64,000 bases of DNA from Geobacillus vulcani PSS1 (GTDB lineage: Bacteria; Bacillota; Bacilli; Bacillales; Anoxybacillaceae): contig NZ_JPOI01000001.1 in assembly GCF_000733845.1 (NCBI RefSeq), forward strand, positions 718,501 to 782,500, given 5' to 3'. Shown piece by piece: positions 36,583 through 45,580 of the stretch. Position 1 is the first letter of the stretch. Each line of letters starts with the position of its first letter. The notes under the pieces were generated by a model. That model had not been told where the DNA came from. It was given only the letters and a program-made list of their open reading frames with translations, and did no database searches. The position numbers and the translations under genes are program-made.

Positions 36583-38208
36583 TTATTGGTATTTGGCAAA
36601 TACTTGATCGATCGTATACACAAGCCAATCCTTTACGATGTCAAACGCAAAGGGCACATTCAGGCGTTCTGTCCATTGATGGGCATCACGGCCAACCGGC
36701 CCCACATTCAAAACGGGAACGTTCCATTCGGCAAGCGCTTCAATCGGCAGCGTATAGCCCTGATTCCACATCGGCATGTTTGCGGCTAATACCTGCAATG
36801 ATGCCGGCGGCTGTTGCAGCCCGACATAGCTTAAATCGGAAATACCGCCGAAATAGTGCTGCTGTACGAGCGTAATGCCATAGGTTTCACGGACGTATTG
36901 TTGCAGCTTGGATACCAACCATTGAATGAATGGATCACTGCTTGAATTGACAGCTGGATAATACGGCGGTGCATAAAACAGCACAATCATCGGGGCAAAA
37001 TCTTTGCATAACATGCCAAGTTGATCAACGAATTCGATGGTTTGCTCCCGCTCGTCTTGATCTGCCCCGTCCCTGAACACCTGTTTTTCGAGTTGCTTCA
37101 CCTGTTCTTCACCAACGATTTCCACCGCTTTTTGCCGCAACTCGGCAAACGTCCATACTTTCACAGAAATCGATGTTGGTACTGATCTCTCCAATTGGGC
37201 AAAGCGAGCCGCCTGTTCCTGATACTTTTTCTCGATTCGCTCCGCCGCCCGTCTCGCCAATTCGACGAGCGCTTGGGTGACGTCATCGAGCGATTTTTGT
37301 TGTAAAAACAAATTATATAGCGTCACTGCCCGGTGCGGGATTTGCACAGAATAGTCTTCCTTCAAATCCATTTGAAGCAAATTGGTTGGAGGCGGGCTTA
37401 CTTCTTCACCTGACACTTCGCAAAAATCGGTATTCAACTCGAGCTCATTGATAATTTGCGCCACCATCCAATTGGCATTCAATCCCGCTAACGGTTCGCC
37501 GACATGCGTTTCTTTCCCATAGCAATAAAACCCCGGCAGCACTTTGCCAATCGAGCCGGTGTAAATGTACTTCGTCTGATCGCCTGGATAGCGGGCAAAC
37601 ATCGGCTCGGAATTAAGCACCAACCGATAGTCCAAACCATATCGTTTTGCCATCTGAACCAATACAGGCACAGCAGCACGCATTCCTGCAGAATTGACTT
37701 CTTCATCCGGCACTGTCAACAATAACAAATTTCCATCGAATCGACCCGAACATGCCTGTTCAATGAGCGACATATGCAGGGCAAGCCCACATTTCATATC
37801 CATCACGCCGCGGCCGAAAAGCCATTCGCCGCATTCCAAATCGGCTCGCACGTCCGCCGGGAGCTGCTCTTTTTGTTCATAAAACCGTGCTGTGATCGTT
37901 TCCGGTGAAAACGCGATTTCTTTCCATGCTCCATAATCTTGCACATCGACCACATCAAAATGGCTGACCAACACAATTGTATCGCGCACATGCTGCGCTT
38001 TTTGGACCAAGGCTGTAACAAAATAGCGGCCATCCCCAGTTGAATGCAACTGAACCAAATCCGGATGCGCTTGAAAATAGTCGAGCGACTGCAACTCGCC
38101 CGCTATATACTCCGCCATGCGCACTTCGGCTTCCGATCCGCTAATGCTGGCATGCTCGACAAGTCGGCAAAGCAATGTCCGCAATTGCTCCTTCGTCTGC
38201 CACTTCAT
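36583..38208 (-). CDS. rocB: Arginine-utilisation protein RocB, M20-family peptidase
   Basis: A 541-residue protein of the M20 metallo-hydrolase family. The first zinc motif is VSHFDVVDV with SHxD; the second region is FGRGVMDMKCGLALHM (D-metal bridge) followed by VPDEEVNSAGMR (EE). The long insertion and C-terminal half are typical of RocB. In B. subtilis rocB lies in an operon for arginine and ornithine use but its reaction is undefined. Start ATG 38208 after GAAGGAAAGG. Third gene after rocD and rocG here. Confidence 0.88.
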   Translation of the reverse strand: MKWQTKEQLRTLLCRLVEHASISGSEAEVRMAEYIAGELQSLDYFQAHPDLVQLHSTGDGRYFVTALVQKAQHVRDTIVLVSHFDVVDVQDYGAWKEIAFSPETITARFYEQKEQLPADVRADLECGEWLFGRGVMDMKCGLALHMSLIEQACSGRFDGNLLLLTVPDEEVNSAGMRAAVPVLVQMAKRYGLDYRLVLNSEPMFARYPGDQTKYIYTGSIGKVLPGFYCYGKETHVGEPLAGLNANWMVAQIINELELNTDFCEVSGEEVSPPPTNLLQMDLKEDYSVQIPHRAVTLYNLFLQQKSLDDVTQALVELARRAAERIEKKYQEQAARFAQLERSVPTSISVKVWTFAELRQKAVEIVGEEQVKQLEKQVFRDGADQDEREQTIEFVDQLGMLCKDFAPMIVLFYAPPYYPAVNSSSDPFIQWLVSKLQQYVRETYGITLVQQHYFGGISDLSYVGLQQPPASLQVLAANMPMWNQGYTLPIEALAEWNVPVLNVGPVGRDAHQWTERLNVPFAFDIVKDWLVYTIDQVFAKYQ

Positions 38209-38290
38209 GTTTTTTCCCTTTCCTTCTACGAAAATAGACAAGCCCAACCGGGGAGCATGGCTCCTGCCGCTGCGCTTCGTCTCTCAGCGG

Positions 38291-39529
38291 TTATACCCAA
38301 CCGCGGTAGCGAGCTGCTTCTGCTGTTTGGCGCAGCCCGATCATGTACGCCGCCATGCGCATATCCACACGGCGCGATTCGGCCAATTCATAGACGCGAT
38401 GAAATGCGCTCACCAATTTCTCTTTCAACTTCTCGACCACTTCCTCTTCCGTCCAATAATAGCCTTGGTTGTTTTGCACCCATTCAAAATAGGAAACGGT
38501 CACCCCACCGGCGCTGGCCAGCACGTCAGGCACCAATAGCAAGCCCCGTTCCGTCAAGATTTTGGTCGCTTCGAGCGTCGTTGGGCCGTTGGCCGCCTCA
38601 ACCACAATTTTAGCGCGAATATTCGCGGCATTGTCACGCGTAATTTGATTCGCTACCGCGGCCGGAACTAAAATATCACACTCTTTTTCTAGCAACTCCT
38701 GATTGGTGATGACATTCTCAAACAGCGTTGTCACCGTGCCAAAACTGTCGCGGCGGTCCAACAAATACGGAATATCTAGTCCGTTTGGGTCATACAACGC
38801 GCCATAGGCATCGGAAATGCCAATGACGCGTGCTCCAGCTTCATGCAAAAATTTGGCCAAAAAGCTGCCCGCATTGCCGAATCCTTGAATAATGACCCGC
38901 GCCCCCTGCAACTCAATTCCCGCTTTTTTCGCTGCTTCTTCGATGCAAATCGTGACACCGAGCGCTGTTGCCTTTTCCCGGCCTTGGGAACCACCGAGCA
39001 CAAGCGGCTTGCCGGTGATAAAGCCAGGGGAATCAAACTCGCGGATGCGGCTGTATTCGTCCATCATCCACGCCATAATTTGCGAGTTGGTAAACACGTC
39101 TGGCGCTGGGATATCTTTGGACGGCCCCACGATCTGACTGATTGCCCGCACATAGCCGCGGCTGAGCCGTTCCAATTCTCCCATGGACATTTTCCGTGGA
39201 TCACAGACGATCCCTCCTTTGCCGCCGCCATACGGCAACCCGACAATGCCGGCTTTGATTGTCATCCACATTGAAAGCGCCTTGACTTCTTCCTCGGTGA
39301 CGTCCGGATGAAAACGAATGCCTCCCTTGGTCGGCCCCACGGCATCGCTATGCTGGGCGCGGTAACCCGTAAATACTTTCACCGTTCCATCATCCATACG
39401 GACGGGAATACGTACGGTAAGGACGCGCAATGGTTCTTTCAACAGATCATACATCTCCTCACCGTAGCCAAGTTTGGCCAGCGCCTCTTTGATCACACGT
39501 TGGGTGGAGAGAAACATATTTTCTTCCAT
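38291..39529 (-). CDS. rocG: Catabolic glutamate dehydrogenase (RocG/GudB)
   Basis: A 412-residue Glu/Leu/Phe/Val dehydrogenase, closely similar to B. subtilis RocG. It has YGGGKGGI with the catalytic Lys, DIPAPDV (catalytic Asp), the GFITGKP segment, and the Rossmann motif IQGFGNAGSF. It converts glutamate to 2-oxoglutarate and ammonia with NAD, the last step of the arginine/ornithine/proline route. It lies between rocD and rocB with spacings of 26 and 82 bp, which argues for RocG rather than the unlinked GudB. The N-terminus is about a dozen residues shorter than that of B. subtilis RocG. Confidence 0.93.
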   Translation of the reverse strand: MEENMFLSTQRVIKEALAKLGYGEEMYDLLKEPLRVLTVRIPVRMDDGTVKVFTGYRAQHSDAVGPTKGGIRFHPDVTEEEVKALSMWMTIKAGIVGLPYGGGKGGIVCDPRKMSMGELERLSRGYVRAISQIVGPSKDIPAPDVFTNSQIMAWMMDEYSRIREFDSPGFITGKPLVLGGSQGREKATALGVTICIEEAAKKAGIELQGARVIIQGFGNAGSFLAKFLHEAGARVIGISDAYGALYDPNGLDIPYLLDRRDSFGTVTTLFENVITNQELLEKECDILVPAAVANQITRDNAANIRAKIVVEAANGPTTLEATKILTERGLLLVPDVLASAGGVTVSYFEWVQNNQGYYWTEEEVVEKLKEKLVSAFHRVYELAESRRVDMRMAAYMIGLRQTAEAARYRGWV

Positions 39530-39555: not shown

Positions 39556-40755
39556 TTATGGACGGGACAAGACATTCACAATCCGTTCAAACGCCCAATC
39601 CAATTCTTCTTTTGTAATGATGAGCGGCGGTGCAAAGCGAATGACCGTCTCGTGTGTTTCCTTGCAAAGCAAGCCTTGCTCTTTCAGCGCCTCACAGTAC
39701 GGGCGCGCTGGGCCATGCAGCTCAACGCCGATAAACAAGCCGCGGCCGCGAATTTCTTTAATATCCTCGTTTTGAATTTGTTTTAGTTTCGAAAGGAAGT
39801 ATTCGCCAAGTTCAAGCGAACGCTCCGCTAGACGCTCTTCTTCAATCACCTCGAGCGCTGCAATCGACACCGCGCAAGCGAGCGGGTTGCCGCCGAACGT
39901 CGAGCCGTGCGAGCCGGGTTCAAATACCGACAAAATATCGCGGTTGGCGACGACGCACGAAATCGGGAACACCCCTCCGCCCAACGCTTTTCCTAAAATA
40001 TACATATCCGGCACAACCTCTTCCCAGTCGCAGGCAAACAACTTCCCTGTCCGACCGAGCCCGGTTTGAATTTCGTCCGCGATGAACAAGACGTTATGTT
40101 GCTTGCATACGTCATACGCCGCTTTTAAAAATCCTTGCGGCGGGATGCGGATGCCCGCTTCGCCTTGGATCGGCTCGACAAGAAACGCCGCTGTATTCGG
40201 TGTGATCGCGGCTTTCAGGGCTTCGATATCGCCGTACGGGATGATTTTCACGCCCGGCAACAGCGGCCCAAACCCGCGTTTATAAGCCGGTTCGGACGAC
40301 AGCGACACGGCGGCAAGCGTCCGGCCGTGGAAGTTTCCTTCACAAACGATGATTTCGGCTTGGTTGTCCGGGACGCCTTTGACGTCATACGCCCAGCGGC
40401 GCGCCGCTTTGAGCGCCGTTTCCACCGCTTCGGCGCCCGTGTTCATCGGCAGCACCATTTCTTTTTTTGTCAATCGGCATACTTTCTCGTACCACGGACC
40501 GAGCTGGTCGTTATGGAACGCGCGCGACGTGAGCGTGACACGATCCGCCTGCTTTTTCAGCGCCGCAATAATTTTCGGATGGCGATGGCCTTGGTTCACC
40601 GCCGAATAAGCGCTTAACATATCCATATAGCGGTTGCCTTCCGGGTCTTTCACCCATACTCCTTCCGCTTCCGAGATGACGATCGGCAGGGGATGGTAGT
40701 TGCGCGCCCCGTATTGTTCCGTCTTCGCAATGAGCTGTTCCGATTTGGTTGCCAT
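39556..40755 (-). CDS. rocD: Ornithine aminotransferase
   Basis: A class III aminotransferase of 399 residues. PLP features are visible: [17 protein letters not shown], the active-site [14 protein letters not shown] (Asp pairing with PLP nitrogen), and the Schiff-base Lys in [11 protein letters not shown]. It moves the delta-amino group of ornithine to 2-oxoglutarate, giving glutamate semialdehyde for RocA. ATG at 40755 after AAAGGAG. A hairpin terminator upstream separates it from rocA, so rocD-rocG-rocB probably has its own promoter in the 160-bp interval. Confidence 0.94.
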
Positions 40756-40920: not shown

Positions 40921-42468
40921 TTAAAACATTTCCGATACCGTTTTCGCTTGCATATGGAGGATTAAGTAATCCGGACCGCCGGCTTTCGAGTCCGTCCCTG
41001 ACATATTGAAGCCGCCAAACGGTTGATAGCCGACGATCGCACCCGTGCAGCCGCGATTGAAATACAAGTTGCCGACATGGAACTCCTGCCGCGCTTTTTC
41101 GAGATTCGCTCGGTTGCGCGAAATGACAGCGCCTGTCAGGCCGTATTCTGTGTTGTTCGCGATCTCGAGCGCATGGTCAAAGTCGCGCGCTTTGGCGAAC
41201 GCGACGACCGGACCGAAAATTTCTTCCTGCATAATGCGCGCATTCGGATCGACATCGGCAAACACTGTCGGCTGGATGAAGAAGCCTTTTGCATCGTCTC
41301 CTTCTCCGCCAGTCATCAGACGGCCTTCCTGTTTTCCGATTTCGATATATTCCATAATTTTGTTGTACGCGTTTTGGTCGATCACCGGCCCCATAAACGT
41401 CGCTTGCTCCGCCGGGTCGCCGACGTTGAGCTGCTTTGTCAGCTCGACGACGCGGTTCAACACTTGATCATACACATCTTCGACGATGATCGCGCGCGAG
41501 CACGCCGAACATTTTTGCCCCGAAAAGCCAAACGCCGAGGCGACAATCGATTGAGCCGCCAGTTCCAGGTCGGCTTCCTTGTCCACAACGATGGCGTCTT
41601 TGCCGCCCATTTCCGCGATGACACGCTTCAGCCAAATTTGTCCCGGGTGCACTTTCGCTGCCCGCTCGTAAATGCGGATGCCAACATCGCGCGAGCCGGT
41701 GAAGCTGATAAACCGCGTGCGCGGATGGTCGACCAAATAGTCGCCCACTTCGGCTCCGCTGCCCGGGATGTAGTTGAGGACACCAGCCGGCAGTCCCGCT
41801 TCTTCCAACACTTCCACAAATTTATACGCCACCACCGGCGTGGCGCTCGCCGGTTTCAACAGCACCGTATTGCCCGTCACAAGCGAAGCGACCGTTGTCC
41901 CCGCCATAATGGCAAACGGGAAGTTCCACGGTGAAATGACGACGCCGACGCCAAGCGGGATATAGAAAAAGCGGTTCGTTTCCCCCGGACGGCTTTCCAC
42001 CGGAATGCCGTCTTTCAACTTCAACATTTGCCGGCCGTAATATTCCATAAAGTCGATCGCTTCTGCTGTATCGGCATCTGCCTCGCGCCACGGTTTTCCG
42101 GCTTCTTTCACCAACCAGGCGGAAAATTCGTGCTTGCGCCGGCGCACGATCGCCGCCGCCCGGAACAAAATATCGGCCCGCGCTTCCGGACTCGTCCGGC
42201 TCCACGTGCGGAACGCTTCATCGGCGGCTTTCATCGCCCGTTCGGCGAGCTCTTGATTCGCTTTCGCCACCCGGCCGACCACCTCCGCCTTATTGGCCGG
42301 ATTGATCGACGTGATCTTGTCCTCGGTCATGATGCGCTCGCCGCCGATCACGAGCGGATAATCGCGCCCGAGTTCGCCTTCCACTTTCTTGAGCGCTGCC
42401 AAAAACGCGTCCCGGTTCGCTTCCACAGTAAAGTCGGTGAGCGGTTCATGTCTGTATGGCTGCACCAT
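40921..42468 (-). CDS. rocA: L-glutamate gamma-semialdehyde (P5C) dehydrogenase
   Basis: An ALDH-superfamily enzyme of 515 residues that matches RocA/PutC end to end. The catalytic Glu is in [11 protein letters not shown] and Cys in [12 protein letters not shown]; substrate-specific segments include [11 protein letters not shown] and the C-terminal [19 protein letters not shown]. It oxidises glutamate semialdehyde, from ornithine or proline, to glutamate with NAD. It is preceded by the amino-acid permease by 97 bp and followed by a terminator. Strong ribosome site AAAAGGAGG before ATG. Confidence 0.95.
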
Positions 42469-42564
42469 TTCGTCGTCCTCCTTTTAACAAGCAAAAAATT
42501 TTTTCGTTATAAAACGGTTTCATAGTTATATTATGCAAATGATTATGGCTTTTTTCAATGATTT

Positions 42565-43977
42565 TTACTTGGCAACCGTCAGCTCCTCTTTTTCCACGTT
42601 CAGAGGCCGAAGTCGTTTTTTCGCCACCAGATGGTAGTAACCATAACAAGCGAGCAAAAACGGAATCCCGCAGTAAAGCGCGATCCGCTGATCCGGAATG
42701 AATGCCAATCCGATGATCGTCGCCATATTTAACGCAAACGCCGCCAGCGGCACGAATGGATACAGCGGCGTCCGATACTTCAAATCGCGCACATCGCCGC
42801 CCTCACGCAAAAACGCCTTCCGTCCCAAATAGCTCGACAGCGCAATCGACGCCCAGACGGTCACCGCGCCAAACCCGGCGATCGCCGTTAACCAAACATA
42901 CACCGTATCTTCCGCGTAAATGCTGCATAAAAGCGACAAGCATCCGATGGCAATGCTGGCGATCAGCGCGTTAATCGGCACGCCGCGCTTCGACAGTTTG
43001 CTGAAAAACGGCGTCACCATTCCTTGGCGCGACATCGACCAAAGCACGCGCGACGTTGCGTACAATCCTGAATTGGCCACCGACAGCACCGCGGTAATGA
43101 TGACAAAGTTCATGATATCGGCCGCATACGGAATGCCAATGTTGTCAAACACGACCACAAATGGGCTTTCCACCACACCCGCTTTCTCCCACGGAAACAA
43201 ACCGGCCAGCACAAAAATCGCCAGAATGAAGAAGATCAAAATGCGCCATACCGTATTGCGCAACGCCACCGGCACCGTCTTCTCCGGCTCTCGGCTTTCC
43301 CCTGCAGCCACACCGACCAGTTCCGTCCCTTGGAAGGAAAAGTTCACAAGAATCATGGTCGTAAAAATCGCCCAAAACCCATTGGGGAACAAGCCGCCAT
43401 GGTCAGTGAAGTTGGAGAGAAACGGAGCAGGCTGCCCGTTTTTCATCTGGATGACGCCAAACATCGCCGCCAATCCAAGCACAATAAAGGCGATCACCGT
43501 CAGCACTTTCACGCTGGAAAACCAAAACTCGACCTCGGCAAACCCTTTGACAGACAAGGCGTTGATCAAAAACAACAACAAGGCAAAGACCGCACAAAAC
43601 ACCCATGTCGGCACATCAGGAAACCATCGCTTCATCAAAATGCTGACCGTGAGCAGCTCGATGCCAACCGTCACCGACCAATTGAGCCAAGACAGCCAGC
43701 CGATGCAGTAGCCGGCAGCCGGCGAGATGAATTTCGTCGCATACGTCTGATACGACCCGGCATCGGGGATTCTCACGGCCAATTCTCCTAGCGAAAGCAT
43801 CGTCAAATACATGACGAGACCGCCGAATAAGTAAGCGGCCACCGCTCCCCCTGGCCCTGCCTCATGAATCGTATATCCTGATCCTAAAAACAAACCCGTG
43901 CCGATCACCCCGCCGAGGGCAATCATAAACAAGTGCCTGCTTTTTAATTCCCGTTTTAATTCTTGCACTGGTTGCAT
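42565..43977 (-). CDS. APC-family amino acid permease (RocC/RocE-like)
   Basis: A permease of 470 residues with twelve predicted helices. It begins with LKRELKSRHLFMIALGGVIGTGLFLGSGY-type sequence (about residues 7-35), typical of the amino-acid transporter family that includes RocC, RocE and GabP. Located immediately before rocA on the same strand and divergent from the RocR-like gene, so import of arginine or ornithine is likely, but specificity for gamma-aminobutyrate or proline is not excluded. ATG at 43977 after GAGAGGGGAGAG. The 235 bp to the regulator hold both promoters. Confidence 0.87.
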   Translation of the reverse strand: MQPVQELKRELKSRHLFMIALGGVIGTGLFLGSGYTIHEAGPGGAVAAYLFGGLVMYLTMLSLGELAVRIPDAGSYQTYATKFISPAAGYCIGWLSWLNWSVTVGIELLTVSILMKRWFPDVPTWVFCAVFALLLFLINALSVKGFAEVEFWFSSVKVLTVIAFIVLGLAAMFGVIQMKNGQPAPFLSNFTDHGGLFPNGFWAIFTTMILVNFSFQGTELVGVAAGESREPEKTVPVALRNTVWRILIFFILAIFVLAGLFPWEKAGVVESPFVVVFDNIGIPYAADIMNFVIITAVLSVANSGLYATSRVLWSMSRQGMVTPFFSKLSKRGVPINALIASIAIGCLSLLCSIYAEDTVYVWLTAIAGFGAVTVWASIALSSYLGRKAFLREGGDVRDLKYRTPLYPFVPLAAFALNMATIIGLAFIPDQRIALYCGIPFLLACYGYYHLVAKKRLRPLNVEKEELTVAK

Positions 43978-44179
43978 CTGAAAACTCTCCCCTCTCTTAT
44001 GATAGATTCCGCAACCGCTTACATTTTTATCAACGAATAGCAACCTCCTTTTATGCAAAATTATTTTTCAATTTCTACTGTATCACAACTTTATTATGAA
44101 TTTATTTTTTTCTATTTTCAATATATTTAGCAAAAAATTTTTTCACATCTTTCTTTTCCTTCCTGTCTCCCGTCCGCCT

Positions 44180-44212: not shown

Positions 44213-45580
44213 GTGAACCGGGATATGGAAACGCTTTTATCGATGTACGAGCAAATTCTCGAAATGATCGACCTTGGCATCCATGCCGTCGATCAACATG
44301 GAAAAACCGTCATTTACAACCGAAAAATGCGGGAAATTGAGAGCATGGATGTTGAGGACGTGCTCGATAAAAACATTTTAGACGTCTTCCACTTTCATCC
44401 GGAGCAGCCGAGCACCTTGCTTGAAGTGCTGCGCACCGGTGAAAGCATTCTGAACAAGCAGCAAACCTATTTCAATAACAAAGGACAAGCCGTGACAACG
44501 GTCAATCAGACACACCCTTTGCGGAAAGACGGGCGCATCATCGGTGCAGTGGAAATCGCCAAAGATGTCACAAAGTTTCGCAAACTGATTGCCGAGCAGT
44601 ACCAACGCAGCGAACCAGGACGGACGCTGGCTGACATCATCGGCCAAAGCAAGGCGATGCAAACGGCGATCCGCCTAGCCCGCCATGCCGCCCGCTCTGA
44701 AGCGCCTGTGCTGCTCATCGGCGAAAAAGGAACGGGAAAAGATTTGCTCGCCTCTTGCATTCACTATGAAAGCGAGCGGCGCGCCAAACCGTTTTTGGCG
44801 CAAACGTGTTTGTCGCTCCCCGACGACTGGTTGGAAACGATGCTGTTTGGCAGCGAAGCAAACGGCGAGATTCAGCCCGGCTTGTTCGAACAGGCGAACG
44901 GCGGCACCGTCCTGCTTGACGATATTGACTCGTTAAGTCTGCCGCTCCAACAAAAACTCGTCCGTTTCCTGCAAGAAAAACAGTTTGTCCGCGCCCAAGG
45001 CCATGAACCTGTTCGGGCCGATGTCCGCCTCATCACTTCGACAAGCGGCGACCCCATTGACGCCGTGCAAACGGGGGAACTGCTGAAGCCGCTTTACTAC
45101 CAGCTCGCCGTCCACTGCATCGTGTTGCCCCCGCTGCGCGAGAGAAGGGAGGACATTTTGCCTTTGGCGGCTCATTTCATCCGCCAAGGCAACGAACGCT
45201 ATGGGTTGACGGTGGAAGGGCTCGATGAGGATGTGCAAGAGGCGTTTCTCGCTTACCGCTGGCCCGGCAATGTGCGCGAACTAGAGGCCGTCATCTTGGA
45301 AACGATGGAAACGATGGAACAAGACACGGTGATCACGCTCGCCCATCTGCCGGCGTATTTCCGGGCCAAGCTCGCCCCTGACGAGGCCAAGACCGATTTT
45401 CTATTCGATACGGATGATATTTTGCCGCTTGACCGATACATGGAAGAGGTCGAAATTTACTACATCCGCAAGGCGCTGCAGCATCACGGCTTCAACATCA
45501 CCAAAACCGCCAAAGCGCTTGGCCTAAGCCGGCAAAACTTGCAATACCGCATCCGCAAATATCAAATCGACAAAGAATGA
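44213..45580 (+). CDS. RocR-like enhancer-binding regulator with degenerate AAA+ domain
   Basis: A 455-residue protein with the RocR layout: PAS sensor (about 8-118, YNRKMREIESMD and FNNKGQAVTTVNQTHPL), AAA+ domain (about 140-365), Fis-type HTH (about 425-452, NITKTAKALGLSRQNLQYR). Walker A is GEKGTGKD (170-177) and sensor II WPGNVRELE (350-358) is kept. The GAFTGA loop that contacts sigma-54 is missing: residues 211-224 read LFGSEANGEIQPGL, about four residues shorter than in B. subtilis RocR. Both arginine fingers are replaced (LLKPLYYQL at 290-298 where RocR has MRKDLYYRL), and Walker B is LLDDID, not LLDEI. It is divergent from the permease-rocA genes. It is unlikely to activate sigma-54 polymerase. 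GTG start after GAGAGGTG. Confidence 0.87.
   Translation: MNRDMETLLSMYEQILEMIDLGIHAVDQHGKTVIYNRKMREIESMDVEDVLDKNILDVFHFHPEQPSTLLEVLRTGESILNKQQTYFNNKGQAVTTVNQTHPLRKDGRIIGAVEIAKDVTKFRKLIAEQYQRSEPGRTLADIIGQSKAMQTAIRLARHAARSEAPVLLIGEKGTGKDLLASCIHYESERRAKPFLAQTCLSLPDDWLETMLFGSEANGEIQPGLFEQANGGTVLLDDIDSLSLPLQQKLVRFLQEKQFVRAQGHEPVRADVRLITSTSGDPIDAVQTGELLKPLYYQLAVHCIVLPPLRERREDILPLAAHFIRQGNERYGLTVEGLDEDVQEAFLAYRWPGNVRELEAVILETMETMEQDTVITLAHLPAYFRAKLAPDEAKTDFLFDTDDILPLDRYMEEVEIYYIRKALQHHGFNITKTAKALGLSRQNLQYRIRKYQIDKE

Follow-up and report, generated by a model that had tools for sequence, protein, structure and literature searches.

The window, a 64-kb stretch of the Geobacillus vulcani PSS1 genome, carries on its forward strand a rocR orthologue and, divergent from it on the reverse strand, an operon of roc genes. 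The genes and the features within rocR are as follows.

44213..45580, forward strand: rocR orthologue (PAS, degenerate AAA+, Fis HTH), 455 aa, GTG start (ORF, Pfam, alignment to RocR)
44243..44569, forward strand: PAS domain, residues 11-119 (Pfam PF00989)
44720..44743, forward strand: Walker A GEKGTGKD, Lys kept (alignment)
44804..44806, forward strand: switch Asn position, N to T, residue 198 (T in 14/14 Geobacillus, N in 118/118 GAFTGA-containing sequences)
44840..44890, forward strand: L1 region, residues 210-226, without GAFTGA, shorter by four residues and predicted to form a short hairpin (alignment, AlphaFold)
44912..44929, forward strand: Walker B LLDDID, E to D (alignment)
45044..45046, forward strand: sensor I, N to S, residue 278 (alignment)
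45080..45106, forward strand: arginine-finger region LLKPLYYQL, R to L and R to Q (alignment)
45275..45277, forward strand: sensor II Arg kept, residue 355 (alignment)
45440..45562, forward strand: Fis-type HTH (HTH_8), kept (Pfam)
42565..43977, reverse strand: amino acid permease, opening the operon that diverges from rocR (Pfam AA_permease, 447.6 bits)
40921..42468, reverse strand: rocA, L-glutamate gamma-semialdehyde dehydrogenase (NCBIfam, above cut-off)
39556..40755, reverse strand: rocD, ornithine aminotransferase, its start taken as the Met before the family match (NCBIfam, above cut-off)
38291..39529, reverse strand: glutamate dehydrogenase, which we take to be of the RocG/GudB type (NCBIfam, below cut-off)
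36583..38247, reverse strand: M20-type hydrolase, assumed here to be, probably, RocB (Pfam Peptidase_M20, 44.2 bits)

The interval 44849-45106, which encodes residues 213-298, had drawn attention in the initial annotation for an L1 region four residues short and devoid of GAFTGA, for arginine fingers lost in LLKPLYYQL and for a Walker B reading LLDDID, the PAS domain and Fis-type HTH being thought retained. Alignment to Bacillus RocR bore out the first three observations and Pfam the last. From LFG to LFE, L1 reads LFGSEANGEIQPGLFE (16 residues) versus LFGTKKGAFTGAVDQPGLFE (20 residues) in Bacillus RocR, and the alignment revealed no GAFTGA shifted elsewhere, the motif being absent from the whole 455-aa protein and not only from L1. 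The finger region differs from the LRKDLYYRL of RocR by R291 to L, D293 to P and R297 to Q. Two losses go beyond the initial annotation, those of the switch Asn (Thr at residue 198) and the sensor-I Asn (Ser at residue 278), each in 14/14 Geobacillus. The roles of the compared AAA+ residues are those given in the available part of PMC7175178 and are in part general knowledge.

Sigma54_activat (PF00158) matches the protein at 142.8 bits (cut-off 20.2), and Pfam also places a lid. In an AlphaFold model (mean pLDDT 87, pTM 0.58) the AAA+ fold is kept and L1 forms a short hairpin; the best Foldseek matches to this model were NtrX, NtrC1, DmpR, PspF, LuxO and FleQ. No NCBIfam model was above its cut-off among the matches listed (25 of 32), the best being PrdR at 270 of 795 bits. 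Considered as a bEBP, the protein has the AAA+ domain and lacks GAFTGA, the Walker B Glu, the switch Asn, the arginine fingers and a target -24/-12 element. As a RocR orthologue it groups with RocR proteins, adjoins the roc genes and has a RocR-type site pair at the roc promoter. With TyrR-like bEBP descendants of the sigma-70 type it shares the absence of GAFTGA and a housekeeping-type target promoter, the latter judged by sequence only. The order of PAS, AAA+ and Fis HTH, the position beside the roc genes and the GCAA-N7-TTGC sites are common to RocR of B. subtilis and B. thuringiensis, whereas the SigL promoters, GAFTGA, Walker B DE and both fingers of those proteins have no counterpart in the Geobacillus form, the promoter of which is SigA-type. 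RocR of B. thuringiensis activates a SigL roc promoter (PMC4428206, in part).

Residues were compared across 178 rows, near-copies included, made up of 14 Geobacillus, 46 other GAFTGA-less and 118 GAFTGA-containing sequences, the last class admitting GGFTGA and GAFSGA in one row each. All 14 Geobacillus proteins lack GAFTGA and show the same replacements at the switch (N to T), Walker B (E to D), sensor I (N to S), finger 1 (R to L, I or F) and finger 2 (R to Q); all keep the Walker A Lys and sensor-II Arg. The GAFTGA-containing rows have the Walker A Lys, switch Asn, Walker B Asp-Glu, both fingers and sensor-II Arg in 118/118 cases and the sensor-I Asn in 117/118. Since the residues lost throughout Geobacillus are kept in these rows, the losses are due neither to chance nor to sequencing error.

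A search of 41 family genomes recovered a rocR orthologue with an intact open reading frame in all 14 Geobacillus genomes (78-100% identity); the best matches listed for the other 27 were at most 40% identical, and one of these genomes had none. Nei-Gojobori dN/dS between the rocR of the window and seven Geobacillus copies was 0.07-0.12 for the whole gene. For the AAA+ region six comparisons gave 0.05-0.10, and the seventh, with the closest copy (dS only 0.02), gave 0.64. Because dN/dS is about 0.1, rocR in Geobacillus is under purifying selection and is not a pseudogene. A decaying, functionless rocR would be in keeping with the many conserved residues lost and with the broken extra copies in one genome, but the overall dN/dS and a frame open in 14/14 Geobacillus leave it a negligible prospect. 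The genome concerned, G028, holds rocR fragments at C1:2470459-2471250 and C2:3115-4325 (76-89% identity) besides its intact copy.

Promoter and operator elements of the roc operon were sought using, for RocR, a GCAA-N7-TTGC consensus that was derived in this analysis rather than from the published RocR UAS.

42530..42558, reverse strand: predicted rocA promoter TTGAAA-17-CATAAT (SigA-type), between permease and rocA (conserved in Geobacillus; scan)
42535..42549, reverse strand: RocR-type site 1, GCCATAATCATTTGC, one base off GCAA-N7-TTGC, located in the spacer of the promoter and extending onto the first base of its -10
42491..42505, reverse strand: RocR-type site 2, GAAAAAATTTTTTGC, one mismatch, 44 bp further downstream than site 1, near +25
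44130..44144, reverse strand: site A, one mismatch, between rocR and the permease gene
44055..44069, reverse strand: site B, one mismatch, 75 bp from site A and inside the permease leader
44093..44121, reverse strand: candidate permease promoter TTGAAA-17-CATAAT (conserved in most Geobacillus rows aligned)
44010..44023, reverse strand: cre-like element TGTAAGCGGTTGCG within the leader of the permease gene (conserved in most of the aligned Geobacillus rows), called with a cre consensus that we take from general knowledge

The main promoter evidence lies between the permease gene and rocA, not upstream of the permease. The predicted SigA-type rocA promoter, overlying its pair of RocR-type sites and with CATAAT at 17 bp and no good hexamer at 20 bp, was present in 13/13 Geobacillus genomes with enough flank, the contig of the 14th being too short, and a promoter scan before rocA found one candidate where 0.3 were expected (sd 0.6). 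In the permease leader two candidates were found with 1.0 expected, a result weak alone, plus two RocR-type sites. The cre-like site there suggests possible CcpA control of the roc operon. In two deep-branching Geobacillus loci (L025 and L026) rocA is directly divergent from rocR, with no permease between them, and a perfect GCAA-N7-TTGC stands about 65 bp before rocR.

It had been stated earlier that no clear -24/-12 promoter precedes the permease-rocA genes, and this held: the -24/-12 pattern TGGCAYNNNNNTTGCW occurs nowhere in the window. The genome as a whole has 11 exact matches, compared with seven for a reversed control; six of the 11 are no more than about 4 kb from one of the four other strong bEBP matches, and roc has none nearby. 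A SigL domain was detected in 26/26 genomes tested, 21 of them GAFTGA-less, and also in the genome from which the window comes. At G000:C1:3041131-3041298, within a 119-aa frame, lies a fragment of a sigma-54 activator domain that may mark a broken bEBP gene.

Two samples of RocR loci were assembled. The first comprised 80 named loci, the best 80 of 488 relatives (L043-L122), and the second took in part of the loci obtained when 397 genomes were drawn evenly across the order; a match at 1e-110 was present in 198 of these genomes, the weakest matches including paralogues of 43-46% identity. From 192 rows, removal of six named Geobacillus and of repeats left 141 distinct RocRs, 105 with and 36 without GAFTGA. 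When roc upstream regions were scanned, as the initial annotation had proposed, the exact pattern lay within 600 bp upstream of rocR in 91/105 GAFTGA-containing loci versus 0/36 GAFTGA-less loci, all outside Geobacillus, and within 2.9 kb, where the flank reached that far, in 95/105 and 0/36. A sigma-54 scoring matrix, with a consensus from general knowledge and a cut-off of 14 set after the scores were seen, gave 92/105 and 0/36 within 600 bp and 97/105 and 5/36 within 2.9 kb; the five GAFTGA-less matches sit 821-2691 bp off and none fits TGGCAYNNNNNTTGCW. Since the score passes these five and its cut-off was post hoc, the exact pattern was preferred for the counts. The eight GAFTGA-containing loci without a scored -24/-12 were L055, L099, L189, L197, L198, L201, L206 (13.8, cut-off 14) and L207.

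A SigA-type promoter placed on a RocR-type site pair was found in 36/36 GAFTGA-less loci versus 3/105 GAFTGA-containing ones, namely L055 and, both also with a -24/-12, L064 and L141. This pattern was written after the first sample, and the later loci, L123-L234, served as its check: among the 67 proteins that the second sample added it was present in 15/15 without and 1/52 with GAFTGA, the corresponding figures for the exact -24/-12 being 0/15 and 45/52. Regulator and promoter have, by all these counts, changed together. The promoter swap was probably one event inherited by shared descent, so the 141 RocRs are not independent observations. In the 36 GAFTGA-less roc promoters the first hexamer is TTGAAA (35) or TTGAAT (1), followed by a GCAA..TTTGC palindrome; at 17 bp after it stands CATTAT (33), CATCAT (2) or TATTAT (1), and at 20 bp TATTAT (30) or TATAAT (2). 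Either spacing, 17 or 20 bp, may be the one used outside Geobacillus, to go by the hexamers.

It had been suggested that the protein lost sigma-54 activation and may now work at SigA promoters. At the sequence level this is supported, in that the residues for sigma-54 contact and most of those for hydrolysis are gone, no -24/-12 is present and a SigA-type promoter lies on RocR-type sites. A further reading, modelled on a proposal made for NtrC mutants of Caulobacter, is that the protein still activates sigma-54 through another surface or together with a partner bEBP; SigL and other bEBPs do remain, and the Caulobacter mutants, which have no GAFTGA, affect sigma-54 genes (PMC12421884, in part). 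With a -24/-12 within 600 bp of rocR in 0/36 GAFTGA-less loci, no GAFTGA elsewhere in the protein and both fingers and Walker B changed, however, this is very improbable.

The reading we prefer, with a probability of about 0.65, is that Geobacillus RocR, once a sigma-54 activator, now regulates roc independently of sigma-54, most likely as a repressor of SigA promoters that arginine or ornithine relieves. The PAS domain and Fis HTH are kept, with the GCAA-N7-TTGC palindromes as likely RocR sites, and the AAA+ domain keeps its fold and ATP-binding loop, its sequence showing the sigma-54 contact loop and hydrolysis residues to be gone. Site 1 lies between the -35 and -10, and site 2 near +25, of the predicted roc promoter; RocR on both would most simply block RNA polymerase, and arginine or ornithine would release it. 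Repression is favoured because sites so placed would block the polymerase. Only the target promoter would have had to change, since the ancestral RocR, as seen in B. subtilis, already represses its own gene: rocR is negatively autoregulated there, and the N-terminal part of RocR is an intramolecular repressor domain (PMC4813224, in part).

Several observations sit less easily with this reading. The Geobacillus rocA sites each have one mismatch, and the loose site matches the genome 126 times versus 127 in the reversed control, so that no excess is seen elsewhere and no further targets can be read from the genome search. The site pair is also farther from rocR in 19/36 GAFTGA-less loci than in most GAFTGA-containing ones. 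The one basis for repression is site position, and the better -10 match outside Geobacillus, 20 bp from the -35 (TATTAT in 30 and TATAAT in 2 of 36), would suit an activator and makes the preferred reading slightly less probable. RocR might accordingly be a TyrR-like or MerR-like activator of a SigA promoter, bound in an over-long spacer and bending the DNA with arginine. Site 1 does lie in the spacer, near the middle of which the palindrome would fall if the 20-bp hexamer, nearer consensus than CATTAT at 17 bp, were used; site A stands upstream of the possible promoter in the Geobacillus permease leader; and Caulobacter NtrC, itself GAFTGA-less, both activates and represses (PMC12421884). We nevertheless consider activation the less likely mode and, on balance, rather unlikely, as the normal 17-bp spacing holds CATTAT or CATCAT in 35/36 loci and TATTAT in the other one, while in Geobacillus CATAAT at 17 bp has no good rival at 20 bp and site 2 near +25 fits a block.

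That RocR no longer controls roc, having ceded it to AhrC, CodY or CcpA and acting elsewhere or on its own gene only, is improbable. Cre-like sites in the leaders, and the action of AhrC on B. subtilis roc promoters (PMC4813224), would agree with such a transfer, but the 43-44 bp site pair stands at the roc promoter, beside rocR, in 36/36 GAFTGA-less loci, and the loose genome-wide search gave no excess of other sites.

As judged by alignment and tree, GAFTGA loss is not specific to Geobacillus and belongs to a larger clade that includes Pseudobacillus, Rossellomorea, Falsibacillus and others. The mapping of the loss across RocR homologues that the initial annotation had called for was carried out on a tree of 82 rows, built by a quick method with motif columns masked and rooted on six other bEBPs, in which many deeper forks are weak. 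There 31 GAFTGA-less rows and one GAFTGA-containing row, L055, formed one clade (SH-aLRT 98) inside the GAFTGA-containing RocRs. L055 was nested within that clade, but the AU test did not reject a grouping of the 31 rows without it (p-AU 0.36). One locus in the collection, L062, from a record titled Pseudomonas sp. ISL-84, has a Cytobacillus-type roc locus and is probably from a mislabelled or mixed assembly.

Among the GAFTGA-less relatives outside Geobacillus, the L1 replacements and lengths vary, and apparent GAFTGA remnants occur in P0021 (ENAYPGA) and P0034 (KSTFTES). These 46 sequences keep the Walker A Lys in 45 cases, the switch Asn in 44, the Walker B Glu in 39 and the sensor-I Asn in 31, with the Arg of finger 1 kept in 22 and that of finger 2 in 35. 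Finger loss is, by these tallies, a separate step and less widespread than GAFTGA loss.

L055, which is Rossellomorea sp. BNER, combines an intact GAFTGA and a switched roc promoter with a -24/-12 before a transporter gene beside rocR; besides a single full RocR, its genome encodes two further bEBPs (39-43% identity). NCBIfam identifies the transporter as NhaC (487.5 bits against a cut-off of 370), the next model, the ArcD arginine/ornithine antiporter, being below its cut-off. In the flank examined, a transporter gene adjoins rocR in 19/80 named loci, and a -24/-12 precedes it in 13/13 GAFTGA-containing loci, many of them close Cytobacillus kin, versus 0/6 GAFTGA-less ones, among which the best remnant is TTGCATTTCATTTGCA in L053. 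Relatives of the transporter occur elsewhere in 6/30 genomes, in a context that differs from that of the rocR-linked copies, and were left uncounted; no -24/-12 was found upstream of the unlinked relatives L271-L275 (five genomes).

L055 is thus probably a transitional form. Its transporter -24/-12 would explain the persistence of GAFTGA, though another bEBP could drive the transporter promoter, and from L055 we infer that the roc promoter changed before GAFTGA was lost. More tentatively, and with slightly more doubt than confidence, the regulon may have left sigma-54 promoter by promoter: roc would have gone first, RocR still serving as sigma-54 activator for the transporter, and once the last -24/-12 target had gone, GAFTGA and then the fingers and Walker B would have decayed, several times in parallel. 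L055 would then be a living intermediate whose RocR works in two modes, activation at a sigma-54 promoter and repression at a SigA promoter.

The sites themselves bear on where the new promoter came from. GCAA-N7-TTGC palindromes (at most one mismatch) occur as pairs. Among 92 distinct GAFTGA-containing loci whose -24/-12 is near, a 41-45 bp pair is present in 53, a 31-33 bp pair in 16 (three have both) and neither in 26; the 41-45 bp pair most often ends 41-43 bp before the -24. In GAFTGA-less loci the pair spacing is 44 bp (29/36) or 43 bp (7/36), and shuffled sequences gave, for each spacing, about 0.01 rows. In 17/36 GAFTGA-less loci the rocR start is 28-58 bp from site 1 and in 19/36 it is 121-229 bp away, the distance from pair to rocR start in GAFTGA-containing loci being 38-127 bp, mostly 38-80. 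The simplest reading would be that the promoter region arose from the former enhancer pair, which is favoured because the spacing within the pair equals that of the GAFTGA-containing enhancers. An origin of site 1 as an old -24/-12 mutated in place was, on the ground of this spacing, provisionally set aside for the old enhancer pair, although the distance from rocR fits that pair in 17/36 only.

GAFTGA-less bEBPs are already known, and the RocR case is new and unusually well documented. TyrR, DhaR, HupR, VpsR and YplP are GAFTGA-defective, as are about 110 homologues with such deviations, and TyrR and DhaR of E. coli and HupR of Rhodobacter capsulatus have been shown to be sigma-70 dependent (PMC3162934, in part). 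Like Geobacillus RocR, these three together with VpsR (Vibrio) and YplP (B. subtilis) are bEBP descendants with GAFTGA defective or deleted; unlike it, they serve other pathways and none is a RocR, and the available part of PMC3162934 reports no matched promoter series with an intermediate. The word RocR occurs 0 times in the main text of that paper. Caulobacter NtrC similarly lacks GAFTGA, acts at sigma-70 promoters and is both activator and repressor (PMC12421884), but it is a two-component regulator with many sites, whereas Geobacillus RocR is PAS-type and stands next to a single catabolic operon. B. thuringiensis SoxR, likewise a bEBP, acts as a repressor at its own promoter, which is not of the sigma-54 type, but it still activates its targets through sigma-54 (PMC4941409, in part). 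Among titles and abstract openings, mostly outside subscription journals, no GAFTGA-less RocR or roc promoter switch was found. In the text available, TyrR-type cases are described as end points, whereas RocR and its promoter can be viewed on either side of the switch and, it appears, in the course of it, with SigL retained, which makes the order of events testable.

Several GAFTGA-less RocRs are named sigma-54-dependent regulators in databases, a name that their sequences do not support. A further element, TGTAAGGGTTTTC, is conserved after the -10 region of most GAFTGA-less roc promoters, 32/36 of which hold TGTAA.GGTTT, and it recurs at the transporter promoter in L052, L053 and L107; it is one base off what we take to be the cre consensus.
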